From: Clostridia bacterium
GTDB lineage: Bacteria; CBDUZB01; JAGLHV01
Assembly (NCBI GenBank): GCA_030595925.1
Contig: JAUVLC010000047.1
Coordinates: 1 to 19,027 of the forward strand
Reading direction: 5' to 3'
DNA length: 19,027 bases
This document shows, piece after piece, positions 6,905 through 18,758 of the stretch. The notes under the pieces are model-generated. The model searched no databases. It was not told the origin of the DNA and saw only the letters and a list, made by a program, of their open reading frames with translations. The number at the start of each line of letters is the position of its first letter. Position 1 is the stretch's first letter. Position numbers and translations under genes: made by a program.

Positions 6905-7819
6905 TTATCTAATTCCTATATTTTCTAAAAAAGTCACTGATTTTTTTACTTGTGTCCGGGAAGATTTAGAATGTGACTCTACCACTTTAATTGTCTCTTT
7001 TGATAAATATTGTTTTATCATTTTAAAATCTACTATACCTGTACCAGGTGCCCGGTGATCGGAAAAACCTTTTACATCATGCAAATGAATTCCGAGCATT
7101 CTATCCGCATATCTTTTCAAATACGCTTCATGAGAAGAAACAAATTCAAGGTCTTGAAAAATTTGTGCATGTCCGGTATCATGCCAATAATAAACATTGC
7201 CTCCTTTAAAATGCGTCAAAATTACACCTATCTCCTCGAAAGAAGGAATTTCATTGTAGTAAAAACGATTTTCTATGCCAATTTTTATTTTTAACTTTGC
7301 AGCATATTCGGATATTTCCTCTAAACTATGTATTGCCGCTGTCAAATAAGGCCTACATTTCTTTTTTCTTTCTTTGAAAAAAATATCTTTATATACAGAA
7401 TAAATTTTTGTTTTTCCAAAATCTCTTACATATCGAAATAATTCCTGTCCTCTTACTTGCATTTCTACTTCACCGGCATGAATAACAACTGCTTGAGCAC
7501 CAAACTCATCGGCTAAATTTATTGTCTTTTTAGTAAGCTCAATTGCTTTATTTCTCTCTTCGTTGTTTAATGAAGAAAGGTTGTAAGCACTAAAAACTGA
7601 ACGTCCGGGATTAAAATGTTTTAGTTTAGGACAAAAGTTATGGATACTGCTAATTTTTATTTTTTTCTCTTTTACCTGTGATAATATCTGAGGAAGCATC
7701 TCTCGCTCCACTTCCACATTTAACTCAATTGCGTAAAAACCCAGAGCCAGAATATCTTTAACTAATTTCTTCCCATCTGTATGTTTTTTAATATTAAATG
7801 CTGTAGACAAAGATAACAT
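6905..7819 (-). CDS. Sugar phosphate isomerase/epimerase-like TIM barrel protein (AP endonuclease 2 / xylose isomerase-like)
   Basis: The 304 residues fit the xylose isomerase-like TIM barrel superfamily, which includes endonuclease IV, sugar epimerases and inosose dehydratases. Metal-site motifs appear in order: VVIHAGEVE (H114), IGIENRF (E183), YWHDTGHA (H213, D214, H217), IHLHDVKGFSDHRAPGTG (H245, H247, D248, D254, H255) and VVESH (E281), so a divalent-metal isomerase or epimerase active site looks complete. An insertion around 120-160 (GQELFRY... RPYLTAA) is basic and unremarkable. The substrate cannot be told from sequence, and true endonuclease IV is less likely because its longer metal-ligand set is not evident. 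The ATG at 7819 has only AAAGG 12-13 nt upstream. It stands alone, between the signalling cluster and the ruv block, with its own predicted promoter. Confidence 0.85.
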   Translation of the reverse strand: MLSLSTAFNIKKHTDGKKLVKDILALGFYAIELNVEVEREMLPQILSQVKEKKIKISSIHNFCPKLKHFNPGRSVFSAYNLSSLNNEERNKAIELTKKTINLADEFGAQAVVIHAGEVEMQVRGQELFRYVRDFGKTKIYSVYKDIFFKERKKKCRPYLTAAIHSLEEISEYAAKLKIKIGIENRFYYNEIPSFEEIGVILTHFKGGNVYYWHDTGHAQIFQDLEFVSSHEAYLKRYADRMLGIHLHDVKGFSDHRAPGTGIVDFKMIKQYLSKETIKVVESHSKSSRTQVKKSVTFLENIGIR

Positions 7820-7985: not shown

Positions 7986-9440
7986 TTAAAACATTTTATT
8001 TTTTTTATATGCAGATAAAAAAGCCTTTAATATCTCCGGATCAAATTGAGTGACGCTACATCTCTTCATTTCTTTTATAGCCATTTCACAGGACATTTTA
8101 TTACGATAAGGCCGTTCCGAAGTCAAAGCATCAAAAGTGTCGGCAATTGCAATAATTCTGGCAAATAAAGGAATTTCTTTACCCCGTAATTTATCCGGAT
8201 ACCCATTGCCATCATATCGTTCATGATGATGACGAATACCGGGAACAACTGTTTTCAACTGTTTAATAGGCATTAGTATTGTTGCCCCCATTATCGGATG
8301 CTGACGAATTTGACTCCAATCATCTTCCGTCAATTTTTCTTTTTTAGTAAGTATTTCTTTTGATACACCAATTTTCCCAACATCATGTAGCAATCCGGTT
8401 AATTGTATGTTTCTCTTGCTTATTTCATCCAAACCTAATTCTTCAGCGATAACAATCGCAAATTTGGTTACGCGTTCAGAATGACCCCGGGTATAAGAAT
8501 CCTTTGCATCAATAGCCGCAGCTAATGACTTAACAATAGAAATAAATAACTCGTCTAAATCTTCATATAAATTTACATTTTCCACAGCAATTGCCGTAGG
8601 TGCCACAAAAACAGACAATAGGGTAAGATCTCTTTCTACAAATTTATTTACTATGCCTTTTCTACACAAATTAACCACACCCAGTAACTTTCCTTTGGTC
8701 AGTAACGGCGCACTTATTCCGGAGCTTACACTGGTAAACTGTTCCAAATGCTGAAAACGGGAATCGTCCTCTAATTTTCCGGTAATTAAAATCGGCTTAA
8801 TTTCTTTGGCAACATAACCCGCTACTCTCTCTCCGGATTTTACTCTCTTTCCAATAATCGATTTTGATACCAACCCTGTAACGGATTTTACCAGTAATTC
8901 CCCTTTCCCTTCATCATATAACATTATTGAACCACCTTCCGCCTTTAGGGTCTTTGCCGCTAATTTTAAAATCGAATCTAGTAATTTATCCAAACCCATA
9001 AGAGAACTTACTGCTTTACACATTTCATATAAATTCACTATTTCTTTCAATTTAACTACTTCTGATTCAAGATTTTGTTTTTGCAAACAATTTTCAATAG
9101 TTAATTCCATTTTATGAAGATTAATCGGCTTGGTAATATAACTAAAAGCCCCCATTTTCATTGCCTTTACGGCCGTTTCCACACTCCCATACGCAGTCAT
9201 TAAAATAACTTCACATTTAACAACATGCGCTTTTACATACTCCAACAATTCAATCCCGCCAATTTCCCCCATTACCAGGTCAGTAAGAATAATATTATAA
9301 GAATTGTCTTTTATTTTACACAATGCATCTTCCCCATTTTCCGCCGTTACAACATCATATCCATCACTTATAAGACATTCTGCACAACCATTTCGAATAT
9401 TACTATCATCATCAACAACTAATATTTTTTCGTTTCCCAT
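7986..9440 (-). CDS. Response regulator with REC, GAF and HD-GYP domains
   Basis: The 484 residues hold three domains. REC (about 4-120) has the acidic pocket D10-D12, phospho-acceptor D54 (ILTDLVM), T82 and K104 (YITKP). A GAF sensor domain spans about 137-295. The HD-GYP domain (about 300-480) has GHSERV, LLHDVGKIGV, HHHERYDGNGYP and IADTFDALTSERPYR, which are the metal and signature motifs of active enzymes. By family it should hydrolyse cyclic di-GMP, or a related cyclic dinucleotide, when its REC or GAF domain is triggered. The ATG at 9440 follows AAGGGGA. It lies 84 nt downstream of a histidine kinase, its probable partner, at the end of the export cluster. Confidence 0.93.
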   Translation of the reverse strand: MGNEKILVVDDDSNIRNGCAECLISDGYDVVTAENGEDALCKIKDNSYNIILTDLVMGEIGGIELLEYVKAHVVKCEVILMTAYGSVETAVKAMKMGAFSYITKPINLHKMELTIENCLQKQNLESEVVKLKEIVNLYEMCKAVSSLMGLDKLLDSILKLAAKTLKAEGGSIMLYDEGKGELLVKSVTGLVSKSIIGKRVKSGERVAGYVAKEIKPILITGKLEDDSRFQHLEQFTSVSSGISAPLLTKGKLLGVVNLCRKGIVNKFVERDLTLLSVFVAPTAIAVENVNLYEDLDELFISIVKSLAAAIDAKDSYTRGHSERVTKFAIVIAEELGLDEISKRNIQLTGLLHDVGKIGVSKEILTKKEKLTEDDWSQIRQHPIMGATILMPIKQLKTVVPGIRHHHERYDGNGYPDKLRGKEIPLFARIIAIADTFDALTSERPYRNKMSCEMAIKEMKRCSVTQFDPEILKAFLSAYKKNKMF

Positions 9441-9524
9441 AATTTCCCCTTTTGGTTAATTTCCTTTTAATATAATTTTACTATTAAATATCACTTTATA
9501 TCTATAAAGAATTATATAATAAAT

Positions 9525-10964
9525 TTAACAAAAATCAAAACTATCATTTTCTTCCTTCGGCAATGTAAAATAAAAAGTACTTCCTTTTCCCATTATACTT
9601 TCTACCCAGATATCCCCTTTATGAAGCTGCACTATGGCTTTAACAATTGCTAGTCCCAAACCGGTTCCTTTAGACCCCGCAATCCTATTCCTTACACCTT
9701 TAACCTGCTCAAACTTATTAAATATTTTCTCTAAATCATCAGGAGGAACACCCATTCCTGTATCACCGACACTAACCTGTACATATTCCCCATTATTTTT
9801 AACTTCAACAGTTATTGTCCCTTTTTCCGGAGTAAATTTAATTGCATTACTTAATAAATTATTTAATATCTGTCGTATCTTATTTTGGTCCGCAGATATC
9901 ACCGGTATATTTTCCTGGATTTTTGTAACAATTATTATATTTTTTTCATCAGCCTGAACGGTAAACAATTGTATTGTTTCTCGAAGTATCGTTGTTATAT
10001 TCAGAGGTTCTTTAACCAATTCCATTTTACCCCTTTCGATTTTAGCAATATCTAAAAGGTCATTAATAAAGCTGTTTAATCGTTTGGAACTATTTTTCAT
10101 TATATTTAAAAATTTTTTTTGTTTTTCGTTAAGCTCACCTGTTGCACCTTTAAAAAAAAGGTCAATATACATCATTATGGAAGTTAATGGGGAACGCAAT
10201 TCGTGGGTTACACCGGAAACAAAATCCTGTTTCATATGGTCTAATTCTTTCAATTGACGAGCCATAAGGTTAAATTCTTTGGCTAAACTTCCCAGTTCAT
10301 CTTTATTATTAACCTTAATAACCGTATTCAATTTTCCCCGGCCAATCATTTTTGCGCCATAAACTAACTTTTTGATTGGTCCAATCAACGTTTGAGCCAA
10401 AATTAATGAACCAAATATACCTATTATTAAAACAACAAAGGCAATAGCAAAAATTCGTTTACCCGTTTGAGTAACCGTTTTTTTCATCATTTTATTTAAT
10501 TCATGTTGAGAAAAGCCAATGCGGGCAACACCCAATTTCTTATTTTCCACAAATACAGGTAAGGCGTAATCAGATATCCTCTTTCCCTTTTTGTTTTGGT
10601 AAGATTGAATTAACAATTTGTTTGTTTTAATTGCTTTCAAACCTATAGGTGTCTTATCTTTTTCTTCTAACCGCTGAATATTTGTATGGGCCAGAATTTT
10701 ACCTTGCGGATTGGTAAATAACACATAAATTATCCTTTTATTGCGTACAAGAAAGTTAATATAATTAAGCAAAAGAATTTGGTCTTTAGTAATTAAATAT
10801 TCTTTACTTACCAGAACTAATCCATCAACAATATTTATCTGATTTTCTTTTATCTGATTAATTAGATGCCGCCGTTCAGCAAGAAAGAAACAAACACTTA
10901 CCCCTAAAAGAATAAATACTACCAATAAGGTAGCAGATAAACTGAATTTTACTTTTAATTTCAC
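9525..10964 (-). CDS. Membrane sensor histidine kinase
   Basis: The 479 residues run: membrane helix (about 8-29), an extracytoplasmic sensor region (about 30-170) of no recognised type, second helix (about 171-192), HAMP linker (about 193-245), HisKA dimerisation domain with the phospho-acceptor H254 in VTHELRSPL, and an ATPase domain. The ATPase boxes are N (QILNNLLSNAIKFTPEKG, N369 and N373), G1 (DTGMG, D401), F (FNKFEQ) and G2 (GTGLGLAI). All catalytic residues are present, so it should autophosphorylate. The start is GTG at 10964 with AGGAG eight bases upstream. Only 5 nt separate it from the PorV-TPR gene, whose stop codon overlaps its ribosome site, so the two are probably translationally coupled. 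The downstream REC-GAF-HD-GYP protein is the likely phosphotransfer target. Confidence 0.94.
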   Translation of the reverse strand: MKLKVKFSLSATLLVVFILLGVSVCFFLAERRHLINQIKENQINIVDGLVLVSKEYLITKDQILLLNYINFLVRNKRIIYVLFTNPQGKILAHTNIQRLEEKDKTPIGLKAIKTNKLLIQSYQNKKGKRISDYALPVFVENKKLGVARIGFSQHELNKMMKKTVTQTGKRIFAIAFVVLIIGIFGSLILAQTLIGPIKKLVYGAKMIGRGKLNTVIKVNNKDELGSLAKEFNLMARQLKELDHMKQDFVSGVTHELRSPLTSIMMYIDLFFKGATGELNEKQKKFLNIMKNSSKRLNSFINDLLDIAKIERGKMELVKEPLNITTILRETIQLFTVQADEKNIIIVTKIQENIPVISADQNKIRQILNNLLSNAIKFTPEKGTITVEVKNNGEYVQVSVGDTGMGVPPDDLEKIFNKFEQVKGVRNRIAGSKGTGLGLAIVKAIVQLHKGDIWVESIMGKGSTFYFTLPKEENDSFDFC

Positions 10965-10969
10965 CCAAA

Positions 10970-13069
10970 TTACTCCTTATGATTTTGATCTATTTCTGCT
11001 TGTGCTCTTTTTAAGTTTTTCCTGGCCATTTCTAAATCAGGGTTAAGCTCCAATGCTTTTTTCCATGTCTTAATAGCCTGTTTTAATTTACCGTTACTGT
11101 ATTCTACTAACCCCTGCTTATTATATTTATTAGCTTGCCCAACATGAATCTTTCTTAATTTTTTCTGAATTTCTTTTATATAGGATAACGCCAATTTGTT
11201 TTTTAAATCCAAATTAACTACCTTTTTAAATTTTTTGATTGCTTCCGACAACCTTTTTTCTTTATAAAGCTTTATTGCCTTTTTATAATAATCAACAGCA
11301 AACTGTTTGTTAATTTGAACTATATACTCACTTGCCCGTGAATGATGAGGATTAAACGTTAATATTTTCTTAAATTCTTCAAGTGCTTTTCCCCATTCTT
11401 CTTTTTGAAATAGCTGTAATCCTTTTTTAAAATACTTATCGGCAATTGCTTCTTTATTTTTCTCCATATATAACAATACCTTTTTATATTTAGGATTTGC
11501 CAACGATATCTTTTTAAACTGATAAAGTGCTTCTTTAAAATGTTTTCTTTTGTAAAGGTATATCCCCTTTTCATAAATTCGCTTCATTCTTTGTTCTTTT
11601 TTAACCTGTTTGATTTTTTGTCGTTTTTCTTTAATAAAAGCGATGTACTCTTTCGCCTGTATATAATAGGGATCCAGGGTTAAAACCTTATTTAATTCTC
11701 TCTTAGAATCAACGTAATTTCCGTTATTATAATATTGAACCCCTTTATCAAAAAAAGATTTTATAACTTCATCAAATCTCTTTTCCATCTTATTCATATA
11801 CTCTTTAGTCTCCCGATGTTCAGGGATAAGTTCAAGGATATTCTCAAATTCTGCCCGGGCACAGATCATTTCTCCGTCCTGATAACATTTCTTTCCTTTT
11901 TTTAAATATTCTTCAATATTTTTTAACGTAACCACTTCTTCTATGTTCACCCGTATCCGGGCAAGTAACTCCAATGCTTCTTCATGTCCCGGAGCAACAG
12001 CTAAAATGTTTTTAAATTCTTTGTGTGCATTAAGTAAATCCCCTCTTAAAAAGTATTTTTTTCCCCGCAAAAAAGATTCTTCAATGTTTTTTTCAATTTG
12101 AGTGTTTTCGTAATTTCGGCCAAAACGAAAAGAAATGCTGATTTTATGGCCGTCATCAAAATCCTCTTTAGATAAAAAGGCATAATCTAAATTCAACCCT
12201 TTAACCTTAAATCCTAATCCTAATCTTAACCCGTTAGTTAAATCATCCCGCGATTTATAGCCTATTCGCAGGGCAATTGCATTATGCACCCAAAATTCTC
12301 CTCCCAGATTAAGAAAAAAATCGTTATCCCGGGGAAAATTAAAATCCAAAGCCGTAGTTAAATCATTACCAAACAATTCATGTTTCCACGCTCCACCCAC
12401 TTTTATATTTAGAGGAAGCTCATCCTCATCATCAATAAACTTTATCGGGGACCCTATATTTTGAATATTAAGGCCGAATACCAAGGATTTTAACGGCGAA
12501 GGATATAACCAACCAATATCTACGGCATAAGCATTTACTTTCTCATCAGCCAATATTTCCTGAAAAATCTTAAAATTAATACCCCCATCAAGCTTACCGA
12601 TTAATCGGCGGCCATATGCTAAACTAAAAGCAAAATCGCAAAAATACAGTTCTCCCGTTTTTACCCCCCATGGATCATACCCCTCAATACCGCCGACATT
12701 CAAAAAAGAAACGCTTACTCCTAACCCGCCTTTAAGTACTTTTACCGGCTGAACATAAGAAAGAAACTCATATCTGATTTCCTCTCCCCGTTCATTATGC
12801 ATTAGAGTTACTTCATTATAGTCAATTCCGGAAAGGCCTGCCGGATTCCAATAGATAAGATTAGCGTCATCAGCAACCGCTACAAATGCCCCTCCCAAAC
12901 CAACCGGCCTTGCCCCTACTTCCATTTTCAGAAAATTTGCTCCTGTCGTACCCGGTGAAGAAGCAAAAAGATTATAAGGAATAAAACAAAATATACTAAA
13001 AAAAATCAAAAAATAACCTGCATTTTTTTGGTCGGATATTATTTTTTTGACCCTTCTTATTACTTTCAC
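10970..13069 (-). CDS. PorV/PorQ-like outer-membrane protein fused to seven TPR-like repeats
   Basis: A long signal peptide (about 1-37, hydrophobic core 18-35) leads into a beta-rich region (about 38-317) beginning VGARPVGLGGAFVAVADDAN and YWNPAGLSG, the hallmark of the PorV/PorQ (UPF0164) family, and ending in a strand with terminal aromatic residues (KISISFRFG). PorV in type IX secretion shuttles cargo from the outer-membrane translocon to the attachment complex. The second half (about 328-693) has seven helical repeats of roughly 45-60 residues with TPR spacing (typical phrase: YFKKGLQLFQKEEWGKALEEF), rich in Lys. The last repeat ends KALELNPDLEMARKNLKRAQ. The start is GTG at 13069, preceded by AGGAG. 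The neighbouring upstream gene encodes a probable cargo protein, 35 nt away. Whether the TPR part is periplasmic or exposed outside is unknown. Confidence 0.88.
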   Translation of the reverse strand: MKVIRRVKKIISDQKNAGYFLIFFSIFCFIPYNLFASSPGTTGANFLKMEVGARPVGLGGAFVAVADDANLIYWNPAGLSGIDYNEVTLMHNERGEEIRYEFLSYVQPVKVLKGGLGVSVSFLNVGGIEGYDPWGVKTGELYFCDFAFSLAYGRRLIGKLDGGINFKIFQEILADEKVNAYAVDIGWLYPSPLKSLVFGLNIQNIGSPIKFIDDEDELPLNIKVGGAWKHELFGNDLTTALDFNFPRDNDFFLNLGGEFWVHNAIALRIGYKSRDDLTNGLRLGLGFKVKGLNLDYAFLSKEDFDDGHKISISFRFGRNYENTQIEKNIEESFLRGKKYFLRGDLLNAHKEFKNILAVAPGHEEALELLARIRVNIEEVVTLKNIEEYLKKGKKCYQDGEMICARAEFENILELIPEHRETKEYMNKMEKRFDEVIKSFFDKGVQYYNNGNYVDSKRELNKVLTLDPYYIQAKEYIAFIKEKRQKIKQVKKEQRMKRIYEKGIYLYKRKHFKEALYQFKKISLANPKYKKVLLYMEKNKEAIADKYFKKGLQLFQKEEWGKALEEFKKILTFNPHHSRASEYIVQINKQFAVDYYKKAIKLYKEKRLSEAIKKFKKVVNLDLKNKLALSYIKEIQKKLRKIHVGQANKYNKQGLVEYSNGKLKQAIKTWKKALELNPDLEMARKNLKRAQAEIDQNHKE

Positions 13070-13104
13070 TTTTTAACTCCTCAAAAAATTAACTGCCGGA
13101 ACTG

Positions 13105-16100
13105 TTATTTTACAATCATCAACTTTCCTTTTTTACTTTGTTTTTCGTTTTTAATTAAATAAAGATACACCCCGCTCGCCAATTTTTCACCGTAATCATT
13201 GGTAACATCCCAGGATAAAATAGTATCTCCATTTGTATGTTCAATCTTCCTTACTAAATCTCCGTTTAGGGTAAAGATCTTTATCGTAGCCATTGGTGAT
13301 AAATTAACAAAAATAATTTCACGATCCCCCCGGCTTGGTTTAAACGGTACGGGAAAAGCATAGGCATAAAACAAATCACTGTATGATGACCCGGCAAGGG
13401 CAAAAACAGAAGTATGGATACTGGAAGCAGAAACCGTATTTGCTTGTGAATCAACTACTGAATTAGCTAACCTTACCCAAAGATTCGAATTTTCATCTAA
13501 TCTATACATTTGTAAGGTTCCCTCCCGAACCGGAGGCATAGTACCATCCACTATTCCATCTGCAGGAGCAACATCGTTATAAGATAATGTTACGGTTATG
13601 GGCAGATTAAAGTTGTCTTTTAAAATTCCCCTGGCACTATTAAAAGTATTTATTCGGGTTATAGTATCCTCTAAAATAGAATTAAATGGATCATCGTCTA
13701 ATTTAAATTTATCATTAGCTTGGAGAATATTACTTAATTCCGTACATTGCGAACCGGGATCAATTACAAAGAAAAAATCCACAGACAAACCGGAAGGTAA
13801 AACTGATAATCTGGTTTCCTCACCCCAGCTTAGTACCGTATTATTTTTGGTGTAATCAATTATAGTAGTAAAAGTAAACCGTTCTTCCGGTAAAGGGTTG
13901 CCGATCGTATCAGTAGCTTCGGAGGTAATGGTAACCTGGTAAGTAAAATTTTTCTTCAGGCCAGAATCAGGAGTAAAAAATAATTTAAAATTATCCGGAT
14001 CATAAGAAACCACCCCGGAAATTAGTTCATCAATCTCTTGCCCATCTTTATCCCTAATCCCTTTAATGCTGAACGCTCCTTTAGTCTTTTCCTCATTCAT
14101 CCTTTCATTGAAACTTATCTGAATAACAACATCAGGGTTAACCCCGTTCTCTTTATCCTGCGGTAAACATGATAACACATAAGGACACACAGTGTCTATT
14201 CCTTCAAACGTTCCGCTAATAGTCCCGGTATCAATACAAACATTGCCTAATAAACCATCGGTAATAGCAGTAATACTGCCGGATACAGTAATAGTATCCC
14301 CTACACAAACAGTAGCACTGCTTGCCTGTGCACCAAAAGAAATAGTTAATTCATCTCCATCGGCATTCCAATTACCCGAGGCATCTCTCCATGAATGAGA
14401 ATCATTCAAAACAAAAACTTTATTAATGTTTACTTCGTCAATTGTCGGACGGTTGGTTCCTTCACTAAAACAAATAATTACCGTATCATCATCATCCACC
14501 CCGGGTATAAGGACTACTCCATCACTGGCGATAGAACTTAAAAGTGCCGGAGGAGCTTTATCGGAACACACAATATTTGATGAACCTCCCAGAGGATTAC
14601 TATTAAGGTCAGTCAAAGACCCTGTAGAAAAATAGGTTAAATAGGGAGTAGCATCTGTTTCTAATAAATTATCGTTAAAGGTAATGTAAATATCATCATA
14701 AGGCAAATCACCTTTAAAATAAGTCTCCCCTCCTACACCAATCACATCAAAATCAGTAGCCACTACCGTCATAGTATCTATTTCTTCGCTAAAAACAATA
14801 TGAATAGCATCAATATAACCATCAGAATTTCTATCCTGCGTTTCCCGGGAACATATATAAGGAGGAGAGGTATCATTCCCAAAATCTCCTCCCAACACTA
14901 TATTATTATCGCAACAATTACCGTTGCTATCCCAAATACTACTCCCATCTGCGGTAATAGTATCTCCGGGAGCGATAGTAGGAACACCCCCGCCTACTGA
15001 AAGGGTAATTTTTAAAACAGATGAGTTAATCCATTGAGCCGGATCTATACCTATATGGTTATCCCCATCTTTCCATGTATGTCCAGAACTCAAAGCAAGA
15101 ACAGTATCAATATTAGTGGCTCCTATCACAGGAGCATTCGTGTTTTCAGAAAAAATCAACTGGACCGTATCTCCCCCCTGAATTCCTACCCCGCCACCGG
15201 AATCATCACTGGCCTGGGCAGAAACAATAATGGGTGGAGCCATATCCTCTTCAATAACATCTTCTTGACGAACATCCAACAATGGTTCTCCTGAAAGATT
15301 GACTACGTCCCCAAGAGATTCCAGATAGGTTAATTCCGGCTTATCTCCCGTATCAGTAGAACCACTCTTCTCATCAAAACTGATAAAAATATCTGCATCA
15401 TCTACCGTATCCGGATAACCAGGTAAACCGGCACTATTAAATGCTAAATTTGTATAATCTTCTATTCTAAATCCGGCAGCTCCTGCACCTATCGAACTAT
15501 CGTCAACAGATGAAGAAAAAAAGACGTGATAAGCATCTATTTGGCCATTTTTATTATAGTCAATAGTTTGGGCATCAGTAATAACAAAGGAAATAAAAGT
15601 TGCTTCAACCTCAACATAATCGATATAAAGCCTTCCAAATGAGTCATCTGCGCTTCGAAAAAGTATCTCCATATTATTAAGCTTTTCCTGGTCTGTAATT
15701 AAATGCGAAACATCATAACTTCTCCATTCCCAGGATGACCCCTGAATTTCATGCTTTGAAAAATTGACATTATACCCGGATTCATTGAATACCAAATGGT
15801 CAGACCATTTAGTAACGCCTTTGTCATTACTGCAATCTACGAAAAATGTACTTTTTTTGCTCGGCCATTGTTCAAATTTACATTTGAATCTAATTACAAC
15901 CGAATGTATGCGGTAATGAGGAGGAATAAGAAAACTATTAAAATCCATACCTACCCATTCTTTCTTTATCATTGGAAACCCTGGATCAACATAAGCATCT
16001 TCTTCCTCAAGTTGTTCTCTAAGACGGATATCCCACCCAAGCCCGGATAGCGTTCTCATCTCTGCTACAACATCTCCATCATTAACTAATAAGTGCTCTA

Positions 16101-16185
16101 CTTTAGCAATGGCTGGTAAAGAAAAAACAATAAAAAAAGTTAATATCAAAAAAGCCAACTGATTGATTCTAAATATTTTCTTCAT
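13105..16185 (-). CDS. Large secreted multidomain protein with Ig-like domains and a T9SS/FlgD-like C-terminal domain
   Basis: Of 1026 residues, 1-27 form a signal peptide with an AIA cleavage site. Residues 28-198 are a beta-rich N-terminal domain. Then two module types alternate: A1 (about 199-310) and A2 (about 440-542) each open with a DxNxxGxID calcium-type loop (DYNKNGQID, DRNSDGYID). B1 (about 316-435) and B2 (about 544-664) share GDTVQLIFSENTN / DDTVIICFSEGTN and GHTW / SHSW motifs. Residues 666-776 resemble an SbsA-type Big_5 Ig-like domain (DKENGVNPDVVIQISFNERM). Residues 778-932 are another beta domain. Residues 940-1026 match the FlgD-like/T9SS type A C-terminal domain (FPVPFKPS, IKIFTLNGDLVRKI, DYGEKLASGVYLYLIK, KGKLMIVK). 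No catalytic motif is seen, so it is probably a surface or adhesive protein. ATG at 16185 with AAAAGG upstream; first gene of the cluster. Confidence 0.88.
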   Translation of the reverse strand: MKKIFRINQLAFLILTFFIVFSLPAIAKVEHLLVNDGDVVAEMRTLSGLGWDIRLREQLEEEDAYVDPGFPMIKKEWVGMDFNSFLIPPHYRIHSVVIRFKCKFEQWPSKKSTFFVDCSNDKGVTKWSDHLVFNESGYNVNFSKHEIQGSSWEWRSYDVSHLITDQEKLNNMEILFRSADDSFGRLYIDYVEVEATFISFVITDAQTIDYNKNGQIDAYHVFFSSSVDDSSIGAGAAGFRIEDYTNLAFNSAGLPGYPDTVDDADIFISFDEKSGSTDTGDKPELTYLESLGDVVNLSGEPLLDVRQEDVIEEDMAPPIIVSAQASDDSGGGVGIQGGDTVQLIFSENTNAPVIGATNIDTVLALSSGHTWKDGDNHIGIDPAQWINSSVLKITLSVGGGVPTIAPGDTITADGSSIWDSNGNCCDNNIVLGGDFGNDTSPPYICSRETQDRNSDGYIDAIHIVFSEEIDTMTVVATDFDVIGVGGETYFKGDLPYDDIYITFNDNLLETDATPYLTYFSTGSLTDLNSNPLGGSSNIVCSDKAPPALLSSIASDGVVLIPGVDDDDTVIICFSEGTNRPTIDEVNINKVFVLNDSHSWRDASGNWNADGDELTISFGAQASSATVCVGDTITVSGSITAITDGLLGNVCIDTGTISGTFEGIDTVCPYVLSCLPQDKENGVNPDVVIQISFNERMNEEKTKGAFSIKGIRDKDGQEIDELISGVVSYDPDNFKLFFTPDSGLKKNFTYQVTITSEATDTIGNPLPEERFTFTTIIDYTKNNTVLSWGEETRLSVLPSGLSVDFFFVIDPGSQCTELSNILQANDKFKLDDDPFNSILEDTITRINTFNSARGILKDNFNLPITVTLSYNDVAPADGIVDGTMPPVREGTLQMYRLDENSNLWVRLANSVVDSQANTVSASSIHTSVFALAGSSYSDLFYAYAFPVPFKPSRGDREIIFVNLSPMATIKIFTLNGDLVRKIEHTNGDTILSWDVTNDYGEKLASGVYLYLIKNEKQSKKGKLMIVK

Positions 16186-16245: not shown

Positions 16246-16263
16246 ACTGTTTTTAAAAACAGT
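16246..16263. promoter_or_regulatory. 18-bp perfect palindrome, possible operator
   Basis: ACTGTTTTTAAAAACAGT is perfectly self-complementary and is flanked by GTAT-like half matches on both sides. It lies 61-78 nt upstream of the secreted-protein start, just downstream of the predicted -10 box, where a repressor would block transcription. No GC-rich stem or T-run in the right place suggests a terminator. Confidence 0.45.
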
Positions 16264-16275
16264 ATACCTAATATA

Positions 16276-16304
16276 AAGATAACACGCAAAAAGTAAATCG
16301 TCAA
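16276..16304 (-). promoter_or_regulatory. Predicted promoter of the export cluster
   Basis: On the minus strand TTGACG (16304-16299, 5 of 6 to consensus) is followed after 17 bp by TATCTT (16281-16276, 4 of 6). A second possible -10, TATACT (16266-16261), lies further downstream and overlaps the palindrome at 16246-16263. It would drive the secreted protein gene and, in the absence of visible terminators, the following three genes. Confidence 0.4.
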
Positions 16305-16529: not shown

Positions 16530-18584
16530 CTATCTTCCTTCTTCTCTTGCTTTTTGAAAAACTTCGACTAAGGTCTGAGAAACAGGCAACGGAGCTTGCT
16601 CATAATGAGAAAAACTCATTCGATACCTCCCACTTCCCTTGGTCAATGAACGTAAATCTACTGCATATTTGGAAAGCTCGCTTAATGGTACATTTACTTT
16701 TATTTTCTCTTTTTTGTTTTTTGTTTTTTCCATACCTAAAACCCTTCCTCTCCGGCTGTTTAAATCACCCATTATGCTCCCCGTATAAACATCCGGGACA
16801 AATACTTCCGCTTCCATTATTGGCTCTAAAATAAATGGTTTTGCCTCTTTTATACCTTTTTGAAAAGCCATTGCTCCGGCAATCTTAAAAGCCATATCAG
16901 AAGAATCAACATCATGATAGGAACCATCAAATAAAGTGACTTTAATGTCTACTACCGAATAACCGGCTAAGATACCTTTATCCATTGCTTCCCGTACTCC
17001 CTTTTCCACGGAAGGAATATAATTGCGGGGAATGGCCCCTCCCACTATTTTATTTACAAATTCAAAACCTTTTCCTCTTTCTAATGGTTCAATTTTCAGC
17101 CAACAGTCACCATATTGTCCACGGCCTCCTGACTGTTTTTTATATTTCCCCTGAACTGAGGCATTTCCTGCAATAGTCTCTTTGTAAGCAATTCTTGGGG
17201 ATCTAAACTCTAATTCTACCCCATATTTAGATTTCACCCTGGATTTTATCACTTCCAACTGCAAGTCTCCTATTCCGGCAATAATCATCTCTTTGGTTTC
17301 CGCATCATAACTAAATTTTATCGTTTTATCTTCATTCATTATTGCAGATAATGCCGCTGATAGTTTTTCTTCGTCCCCTTTTGATTTAGAATAAACAGCC
17401 AATTTCATAACCGGCTCCGGAAACTCCGGAGATTTTATCAAAACAGATGTTTTCCCTTCTCCCAACGTATCACCTGAAGCCGTTACTTTTAATTTTGCTA
17501 CACAGGTTATATCCCCTGCTTCTACTTCTGCTGTTTCTATATGTTTTTTCCCTTGTAAAAAACACAATTGTCCGATTCTTTCTTTGTGTTCTTTTGTCCA
17601 ATTGTACACATCTTTTCCGGTACTTACCTTTCCGCTGCAAACCTTAAAAAAACTTAATGCTCCTGTATGCTGTTCACTTATTGTTTTAAAAACTAACGCG
17701 GAAAAAGGAGCAGAAGAATCGATAGCAACTTCCAAATTTCTGTCATTAGGAGCAGGAAAATAATTTGTTATTGTCTCCAACAGGGATTTTATTCCTATAT
17801 TTTTCAAAGCAGACCCACATAATACCGGAATAATTTTTCTTTCAATAATTCCTTTTTTCAACTTTTCTTTTATTTCATTTTCTTCTATTGCCTGTCCCTC
17901 CAAATACTTTTCGGTTAAAACATCATCGCTGGAGGCAATAACCTCAATCATTGCATCTCTAAATTTTTCCGCTTCACTCTTAAATTCATCAGATAAAGGT
18001 TTTTGATTACTTTTCCCACTACCGGACTCAAATCTTACTTCTTCCATTTTAATCAAGTCCACTATCCCACAAAAATCACTTTCTTTTCCTATAGGTAGCT
18101 GTAATGGAGTAATAGATGATCCAAACTTTTCCTTTAGTTCATTTATAATTTTATCAAAATCAGCCATTTCTTTATCCAATTTATTAATAAAAATAATGAA
18201 AGGTATCTTTTCCGTTTCCATATATTCTAAAATATTATCGATTTGTATTTTCAATCCTGCAACAGCATCAACCACTATTATCACAGTATCCACTACATGC
18301 AAAGAAGAGACAACTTCCCCTATAAAGTCAGCATAACCCGGGGTGTCAATTAAATTTATTTTTTTATGATTATGTTCAAAAAAAGCTAAAGCTGCATTTA
18401 TAGAAATTTTCCTTTCTGTTTCTTCATGGGTATAATCGCAAAGAGTAGTTCCCTGTTCAACAGTACCCAAACGTGAGGTAACTCCCGTGTTAAAAAGAAT
18501 AGCTTCAGCTAACGAAGTCTTACCTGTATGACCACTACCCGACAGACAAACATTTTTTAAATCAGCTGTTACATATTTTTTCAT
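16530..18584 (-). CDS. EF-G-2-type elongation factor G-like GTPase
   Basis: The 684 residues cover all five EF-G domains. G motifs are G1 GSGHTGKTS (16-24), G3 DTPGYADF (80-87), G4 INKLDKE (133-139) and G5 CGSALKN. Downstream, domain IV is recognisable from KYKKQSGGRGQYGDCWLKIE, GGAIPRNYIPSVEKGVREAM and FDGSYHDVDSSDMAFKIA, and domain V from MGDLNSRRGRVLGME. The catalytic His of canonical EF-G (DTPGHVDF) is Tyr84 here. With the EQGTTLCDY segment (44-52), this places it in the EF-G-2/FusA2-like branch (as in Thermus EF-G-2), not the main translocase. Members bind GTP and ribosomes, but their cellular role is unsettled. The ATG at 18584 has a strong GGGGAGG eight bases upstream. Its own terminator is not evident. 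Confidence 0.9.
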   Translation of the reverse strand: MKKYVTADLKNVCLSGSGHTGKTSLAEAILFNTGVTSRLGTVEQGTTLCDYTHEETERKISINAALAFFEHNHKKINLIDTPGYADFIGEVVSSLHVVDTVIIVVDAVAGLKIQIDNILEYMETEKIPFIIFINKLDKEMADFDKIINELKEKFGSSITPLQLPIGKESDFCGIVDLIKMEEVRFESGSGKSNQKPLSDEFKSEAEKFRDAMIEVIASSDDVLTEKYLEGQAIEENEIKEKLKKGIIERKIIPVLCGSALKNIGIKSLLETITNYFPAPNDRNLEVAIDSSAPFSALVFKTISEQHTGALSFFKVCSGKVSTGKDVYNWTKEHKERIGQLCFLQGKKHIETAEVEAGDITCVAKLKVTASGDTLGEGKTSVLIKSPEFPEPVMKLAVYSKSKGDEEKLSAALSAIMNEDKTIKFSYDAETKEMIIAGIGDLQLEVIKSRVKSKYGVELEFRSPRIAYKETIAGNASVQGKYKKQSGGRGQYGDCWLKIEPLERGKGFEFVNKIVGGAIPRNYIPSVEKGVREAMDKGILAGYSVVDIKVTLFDGSYHDVDSSDMAFKIAGAMAFQKGIKEAKPFILEPIMEAEVFVPDVYTGSIMGDLNSRRGRVLGMEKTKNKKEKIKVNVPLSELSKYAVDLRSLTKGSGRYRMSFSHYEQAPLPVSQTLVEVFQKAREEGR

Positions 18585-18660: not shown

Positions 18661-18758
18661 CCTTCAGCAAGCTACTGAATATCAAAGGTTTAACCCGCAC
18701 AACTTTTGCGCAGCAAGCTGCGGGAAATTAAACCAAAGCCCCTTCGACTACGCTCAGG
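18661..18758. repeat. Degenerate relatives of the tandem repeat
   Basis: At 18701-18758 the order hairpin (CGCAGC-AA-GCTGCG, 18709-18722), then GGGAAATTAAAC, then CCCCTTCGACTACGCTCAGGA parallels the downstream 65-bp units with many substitutions. A more distant relative may lie at about 18659-18696 (CAGCAAGCTACTGAA). The outer pair CCCGCA/TGCGGG (18694-18699 with 18719-18724) gives an alternative stem. These look like older copies next to a recently amplified array. Confidence 0.5.

Follow-up and report, generated by a model that had tools for sequence, protein, structure and literature searches.

A recurrent triplet of surface protein, PorV-TPR carrier and receptor kinase as a candidate trans-envelope sensor made from type IX secretion parts

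One question posed by type IX secretion systems (T9SS) is by what route an exported surface protein tells the cell interior what it has met. In P. gingivalis, PorA, a surface protein with a C-terminal sorting domain (CTD), acts upstream of the kinase PorY; no direct contact between the two was detected, and the authors concluded that other factors mediate between the surface and the inner membrane (PMC7712824). The same question is raised by a 19,027-nucleotide stretch of a Clostridia bacterium, hereafter the window, in which genes for a putative T9SS cargo, a PorV-like carrier, a histidine kinase and a response regulator lie in a row. The original prediction described them as a self-contained unit for export and signalling; in our analysis, the observation was confirmed and the interpretation was partly supported.

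The four ORFs are all on the minus strand, separated by intergenic gaps of 35, 5 and 84 nt, and encode proteins of 1026, 699, 479 and 484 aa. Their direction, spacing and domains agree with the original description, based on the ORFs and on Pfam and profile matches. The cluster is flanked by an EF-G-like gene (16530-18584) on one side and a TIM-barrel gene (6905-7819) on the other, and yebC, ruvC, ruvA and ruvB lie further on from the latter. The features of the locus are as follows.

13105-16185, minus strand: cargo, secreted surface protein (ORF, Big_5, TIGR04183)
13108-13356, minus strand: cargo C-terminal sorting domain, residues about 944-1026 (TIGR04183 over residues 944-1024; PF18962)
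10970-13069, minus strand: PorV-TPR carrier, with the barrel at residues about 38-319 and the TPR arm at about 318-698 (NF033709, AlphaFold, PDB matches)
9525-10964, minus strand: receptor histidine kinase with periplasmic Cache, HAMP, HisKA and HATPase (Pfam)
7986-9440, minus strand: response regulator REC-GAF-HD-GYP, predicted c-di-GMP phosphodiesterase, the variable fourth gene (Pfam, motifs)
16276-16304, minus strand: probable cluster promoter, TTGACG-17-TG-TATCTT (promoter scan; block identical in sister species G001)
9511-9538, minus strand: possible separate regulator promoter, TTGATT-16-TATAAT (promoter scan; kept in G002, -10 in G001)
16247-16262, no strand: palindrome CTGTTTTTAAAAACAG upstream of the cargo gene, perfect in the window (alignment with G001)

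An Rfam search of the window gave no match. At the contig end (18777-19027), an 81-84-nt repeat is present in three head-to-tail copies with 91% matches, and a fourth, diverged partial copy lies at 18716-18747. The repeat is probably an interspersed one and the point where the assembly stopped, and the small ORF that spans it is unlikely to represent a real gene.

The cargo consists of a signal peptide, an N-terminal head, Big_5 domains (Pfam, 3.1e-20) and a T9SS type-A-like CTD. Located at the very C-terminus, the CTD scored 27.9 bits against TIGR04183 (cut-off 23), as expected of a type A CTD, and 21-25 bits against PF18962, under that family's cut-off of 27. It could be aligned with the CTDs of other cluster cargos, in a comparison that left out the cargo rows of G065_B, G064_B (CTD-like domain mid-protein) and G002_A (translated out of frame). 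The head gave no match in a Pfam search, and the AlphaFold model of the cargo (mean pLDDT 34) was unusable for the fold of this region. Among the clusters described below, the heads range from those with no Pfam match to beta-helix, CARDB, laminin-G and kelch, a variety that would be expected if the cargos meet different ligands.

The carrier belongs to the PorV/PorQ family, based on a score of 189 bits (1.2e-55) against NF033709, whose cut-off is 90, and falls outside the PorV proper equivalog NF033710 (72 bits, cut-off 250). Its AlphaFold model, calculated from a 15-sequence alignment, had a mean pLDDT of 82 and comprises 14 strands in residues 85-316 followed by paired helices that end at residue 698. 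Among solved structures, T9SS PorV was the closest match (8gl6_F, Z 32.5; 6h3i_F, Z 32.1), with FadL-type channels next, and the sequence profile of the carrier also matched 6h3i_F at 6.8e-32. Because the global pTM was 0.45, the position of the arm relative to the barrel is not reliable in the model. An outer-membrane barrel with an even number of strands has both of its ends on the periplasmic side. With 14 strands, the carrier barrel would have both ends in the periplasm, so that the TPR arm is predicted to be periplasmic. Elsewhere, two PorV-family barrels (L058 8125-10203 and L064 2321-4033) have a C-terminal OmpA peptidoglycan-binding domain in place of the TPR arm, through which the carrier would be attached to the cell wall.

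In the histidine kinase, H254 and the N and G boxes are intact and a membrane sensor is present, as in sensor histidine kinases. The receiver of the regulator retains D54 and the TKP motif, and its HD-GYP motifs (HDVGK at 352 and HHERYDGNGYP at 405) predict a c-di-GMP phosphodiesterase. The regulator had been said to differ from PorX, which consists of REC and PglZ, and this held: against the PorX family NF052313, only the N-terminal part matched, with 59 bits against a cut-off of 300, and the output is GAF-HD-GYP, not PglZ. PorX also has a phosphodiesterase-type (PglZ) output (PMC10951265), and the window regulator may thus parallel it in biochemical logic while differing in family.

The window's genome (G000) is 97% complete and assembled in 193 contigs. 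It has one SprA-like gene, which lies outside the cluster and encodes 1748 aa matching TIGR04189 in four stretches (3.6e-44; 150 bits, below the equivalog cut-off of 200); SprA homologues were present in 8 of 9 genomes. As SprA is encoded elsewhere, the cluster cannot be called self-contained. Among the T9SS components sought elsewhere in the genome, SprA/Sov was found and PorU, GldL, GldM and GldN were not detected. PorU (C25 peptidase) had no candidate in the 97% complete genome of the window and one match in congener G001, GldL (PorL) and GldM (PorM) gave no match above cut-off in the genomes searched, and GldN (PorN) gave no match in any genome searched, with silent controls. Since there was no positive-control genome, these absences are not firm; G000 may possibly carry out type IX export using another motor and lacking a sortase.

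The same genome contains at least 26 PorV-family matches and 17 sorting-domain matches. Of the 17 CTD genes, 11 have a PorV gene as a same-strand neighbour, against about 0.4 expected (binomial p about 1e-14), as counted by eye from gene maps and with one pair, on contig C56, including an intervening doubtful 83-aa ORF. The pairing of cargo with carrier is therefore common throughout this genome. The dedicated cargo-carrier unit of the original prediction was seen, but it is not special to the locus; because such pairing is genome-wide, what is special here is the TPR tail together with the receptor. In another genome (G005; L075 7219-10454), a PorV-family gene is directly followed by one for a MotA/TolQ/ExbB-family proton-channel protein, a neighbour that could possibly be an alternative energy source for the carrier.

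Comparison with other genomes defined the conserved unit as a triplet of a type-A CTD surface protein, a PorV-TPR carrier and an sCache-HAMP receptor kinase. This order was found in 10 clear clusters, and in two more with a doubtful cargo, in 8 genomes (G000, G001, G002, G060, G061, G063, G064 and G065). Both congeners have the same triplet (L040 and L041), and the gaps of 35 and 5 nt are identical in all three. Neighbouring genes are also kept: G001 retains a portion of the EF-G gene, and both G001 and G002 retain the TIM-barrel gene and yebC beyond the regulator. G000 and G002 contain, in addition, a paralogous cluster in which a REC-GGDEF protein is encoded after the triplet. Outside the genus, the triplet occurs in G060 (WVXT01000075.1), G061 (WJOT01000097.1), G063, G064 and G065, at a carrier identity of about 34-48%, and the carrier and kinase genes overlap by 4 nt in G060, G063, G064_A and G065_A. 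The kinase could be aligned over its full length, sensor domain included, in 12 clusters, and over these clusters the pairwise identities of carrier and kinase correlated with r=0.97, to which shared species history contributes. Functional association of the triplet genes is thus strongly suggested by their arrangement.

The first three members of the four-gene order were conserved in the two congeners as well as in separate lineages, but the fourth gene varies. It encodes REC-GAF-HD-GYP in the window and REC-GGDEF, REC-GAF-PAS-kinase or REC-AAA elsewhere, and is absent in two clusters; outside the genus, the triplet is followed by a REC-GAF-PAS-kinase, by two REC proteins or by nothing. The REC-GAF part of the REC-GAF-PAS-kinase proteins is 47-48% identical to that of the window. 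Because the output domain switches among clusters, the HD-GYP regulator lies outside the conserved core, and the HD-GYP output, which the original prediction had made part of the unit, was rejected as a defining part. In G001 and G002, the kinase and the HD-GYP regulator are on different contigs, that of the G001 regulator beginning inside the short kinase-regulator gap. In G002, a REC with 75% identity to that of the window over 128 residues is fused with an AAA output of the sigma-54 type on one contig (C4; L041 1-1104), and another contig (C119; L111 2166-3317) starts exactly at regulator residue 100 and goes on as GAF-HD-GYP. Tandem genes, strain variation or a join made in assembly may each account for this split, and the apparent swap of output was not used as key evidence.

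A link between the arm and receptors was seen in the genes downstream of PorV genes. A HAMP protein is encoded directly downstream of 12 of 33 TPR-bearing PorV genes, against at most 1 of 54 without TPR (Fisher p 2e-6 to 2e-5, with homologous clusters not being independent); the latter is an upper value because HAMP was absent from the families listed downstream of the non-TPR genes. Selection of the loci had been based on a PorV match, on a sorting domain or on their lying next to such genes, and never on a kinase. About half of the PorV-TPR genes examined had no adjacent receptor. Where a receptor is present, it is not always a kinase. A PorV-TPR gene and a gene for a kelch-repeat CTD protein are followed by an sCache-HAMP class III nucleotide cyclase at L208 6426-11070 (L198 1248-5890 alike), and such a cyclase also follows a 1612-aa CTD protein in the PorV-TPR cluster at L251 3-7590. 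At L124 and L247 (L248 alike), PorV-TPR and a propeller-OmpA protein are followed by an sCache-HAMP-SpoIIE phosphatase, in a row that also has an O-antigen-ligase-like protein and is conserved in all three congeners. In two further genomes (L071 and L073), cargo and PorV-TPR are directly followed by a SpoIIE/HATPase_c_2 (anti-sigma-kinase-like) protein, and the cluster at L250 has a DNA-binding regulator. Since a related sensor kinase occurs without PorV at L241-L244, with several REC proteins, REC-GGDEF and, in two of them, a CTD-like protein nearby, the link between PorV-TPR and the kinase family is strong but not exclusive. At L197 6661-10240 (G062), PorV-TPR is followed by a FliG, FliF-C and TPR protein, with a 2100-aa CTD protein beside it.

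The signals for transcription were compared with the original prediction of a promoter with a palindrome upstream and one transcript for four genes. The promoter-like site TTGACG-17-TG-TATCTT (16304-16276) lies inside a block that is identical in G001, which makes it a plausible cluster promoter. However, the palindrome at 16247-16262 is missing in G001 and was ruled out as a conserved operator. Across the region, promoter-like sites were no commoner than in shuffled sequence, and consensus matches of this kind do not count as evidence for function. None of the three intergenic gaps contains a terminator-like site, as had been noted. A near-consensus site, TTGATT-16-TATAAT (9538-9511), is located just before the regulator gene and is found whole in G002 and with its -10 element in G001, so that a single transcript over the four genes is uncertain, and the regulator may be transcribed on its own from this second promoter.

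Based on these results, we propose that the operon is a trans-envelope surface sensor made from type IX secretion parts, in which the TPR arm addresses an inner-membrane receptor. We give this reading an even chance, and the case for the triplet is one of genome context and fold prediction. The cargo would be exported via the SprA translocon encoded elsewhere in the genome, and its own PorV-type barrel would bind it and retain it on the outside of the cell. We infer that the TPR arm would contact the periplasmic Cache domain of the adjacently encoded kinase and pass inwards the state of the barrel and cargo, whether loaded, ligand-bound or pulled. The kinase would then phosphorylate the neighbouring regulator, and in this genus the HD-GYP domain would change c-di-GMP by hydrolysis, while sister clusters would have the same front end wired to other outputs. 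A broader generalization, which we put forward only tentatively and consider somewhat doubtful, is that PorV-TPR proteins form a class of outer-membrane transducers, where a T9SS-exported surface protein binds the ligand, the barrel holds this protein and the TPR arm serves as a signalling rod to receptors with interchangeable outputs (kinase, nucleotide cyclase or SpoIIE phosphatase).

The main rival is inside-out control of the surface protein by the adjacent kinase, the direction taken in the original prediction. Gene context fits equally a kinase that senses the complex and one that governs its production. Here, the kinase alone would sense a soluble periplasmic or external ligand and control the production or release of surface protein and carrier, with the TPR arm a mere scaffold on the translocon or cell wall. 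Two-component systems often control adjacent genes, Cache is a family of small-ligand sensors, surface adhesins are commonly under c-di-GMP control, and the DNA-binding regulator at L250 fits such an arrangement. SprE of F. johnsoniae, a TPR scaffold on the SprA-PorV translocon (PMC10994853), indicates that the arm could be purely structural. We nevertheless regard inside-out control as unlikely: none of the HD-GYP, GGDEF, cyclase and SpoIIE outputs would act directly on transcription of the operon, two clusters have no fourth gene, and the preference of receptors for TPR-bearing over non-TPR PorV is left unexplained. The repeated appearance of different outputs on the same front end is the pattern of a modular sensor, and speaks against the operon being run by a fixed transcription circuit. 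Less probable still is export quality control, where the receptor would watch the loading or stalling of the carrier at SprA and adjust the cell while sensing nothing outside. The predicted periplasmic location of both the TPR arm and the Cache domain, and the encoding of cargo and own carrier together at each locus, would suit this role, whereas the cargo heads, which vary among beta-helix, CARDB, laminin-G and kelch, resemble ligand-binding modules, and one SprA serves about 26 PorV-family matches, mostly without a receptor; we consider it improbable. That a cargo-carrier pair merely lies beside an unrelated two-component system is very improbable. In its favour, the kinase and regulator families are common and related kinases exist without PorV, but the order conserved across lineages, the 4-nt overlaps, the co-divergence and the contrast between TPR and non-TPR PorV all argue against it.

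The proposed surface sensor shares parts with several known systems. With T9SS type A export by SprA/Sov and PorV in F. johnsoniae and P. gingivalis, it has in common the type A CTD, the PorV-fold carrier and a SprA homologue. However, one general carrier operates there, whereas here about 26 PorV-family matches, many encoded beside a cargo, are present, a TPR arm is fused to the carrier, and PorU, GldL, GldM and GldN were not detected in searches with no positive control. Cargo is likewise encoded beside its own carrier in Flavobacterium, where type B CTDs pair with cognate PorP/SprF shuttles in five operons that also contain a PorE homologue, likewise a further envelope protein (PMC12618676, PMC9143113); in contrast, the CTD here is type A, the carrier is PorV-like and the extra gene encodes a signalling receptor rather than a PorE-type anchor. 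The pathway from PorA to PorY/PorX/SigP (PMC7712824) similarly combines a CTD surface protein with a sensor kinase and a phosphodiesterase-type regulator output, and differs in that a candidate mediator, PorV-TPR, is here encoded between cargo and kinase and that the output is HD-GYP, not PglZ. SprE/PorW of the extended translocon (PMC10994853) is likewise a periplasmic TPR scaffold near SprA-PorV, but it exists as a lipoprotein of its own on which export in general depends, whereas here the TPR arm forms part of one particular carrier. Among open-licence papers, none was found that describes PorV-TPR in fusion with a receptor or linked to one. TonB-dependent transducers of the FecA-FecR type consist of an outer-membrane barrel with a periplasmic extension and an adjacently encoded inner-membrane partner, an anti-sigma factor. 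The likeness lies in a barrel whose periplasmic extension addresses an inner-membrane partner encoded alongside; here, however, the barrel is a different one, neither TonB nor an anti-sigma factor is involved, and the outputs are kinase, cyclase or phosphatase.

Because the triplet recurs across lineages with changing outputs, its interest exceeds that of a single operon. PorV-TPR is a plausible mediator between a secreted surface protein and the cell interior, and the findings also suggest that T9SS carriers have been elaborated into sensors outside Bacteroidota. Should PorV-TPR proteins indeed form a class of transducers, several uncultured lineages would possess a separate mode of trans-envelope signalling.
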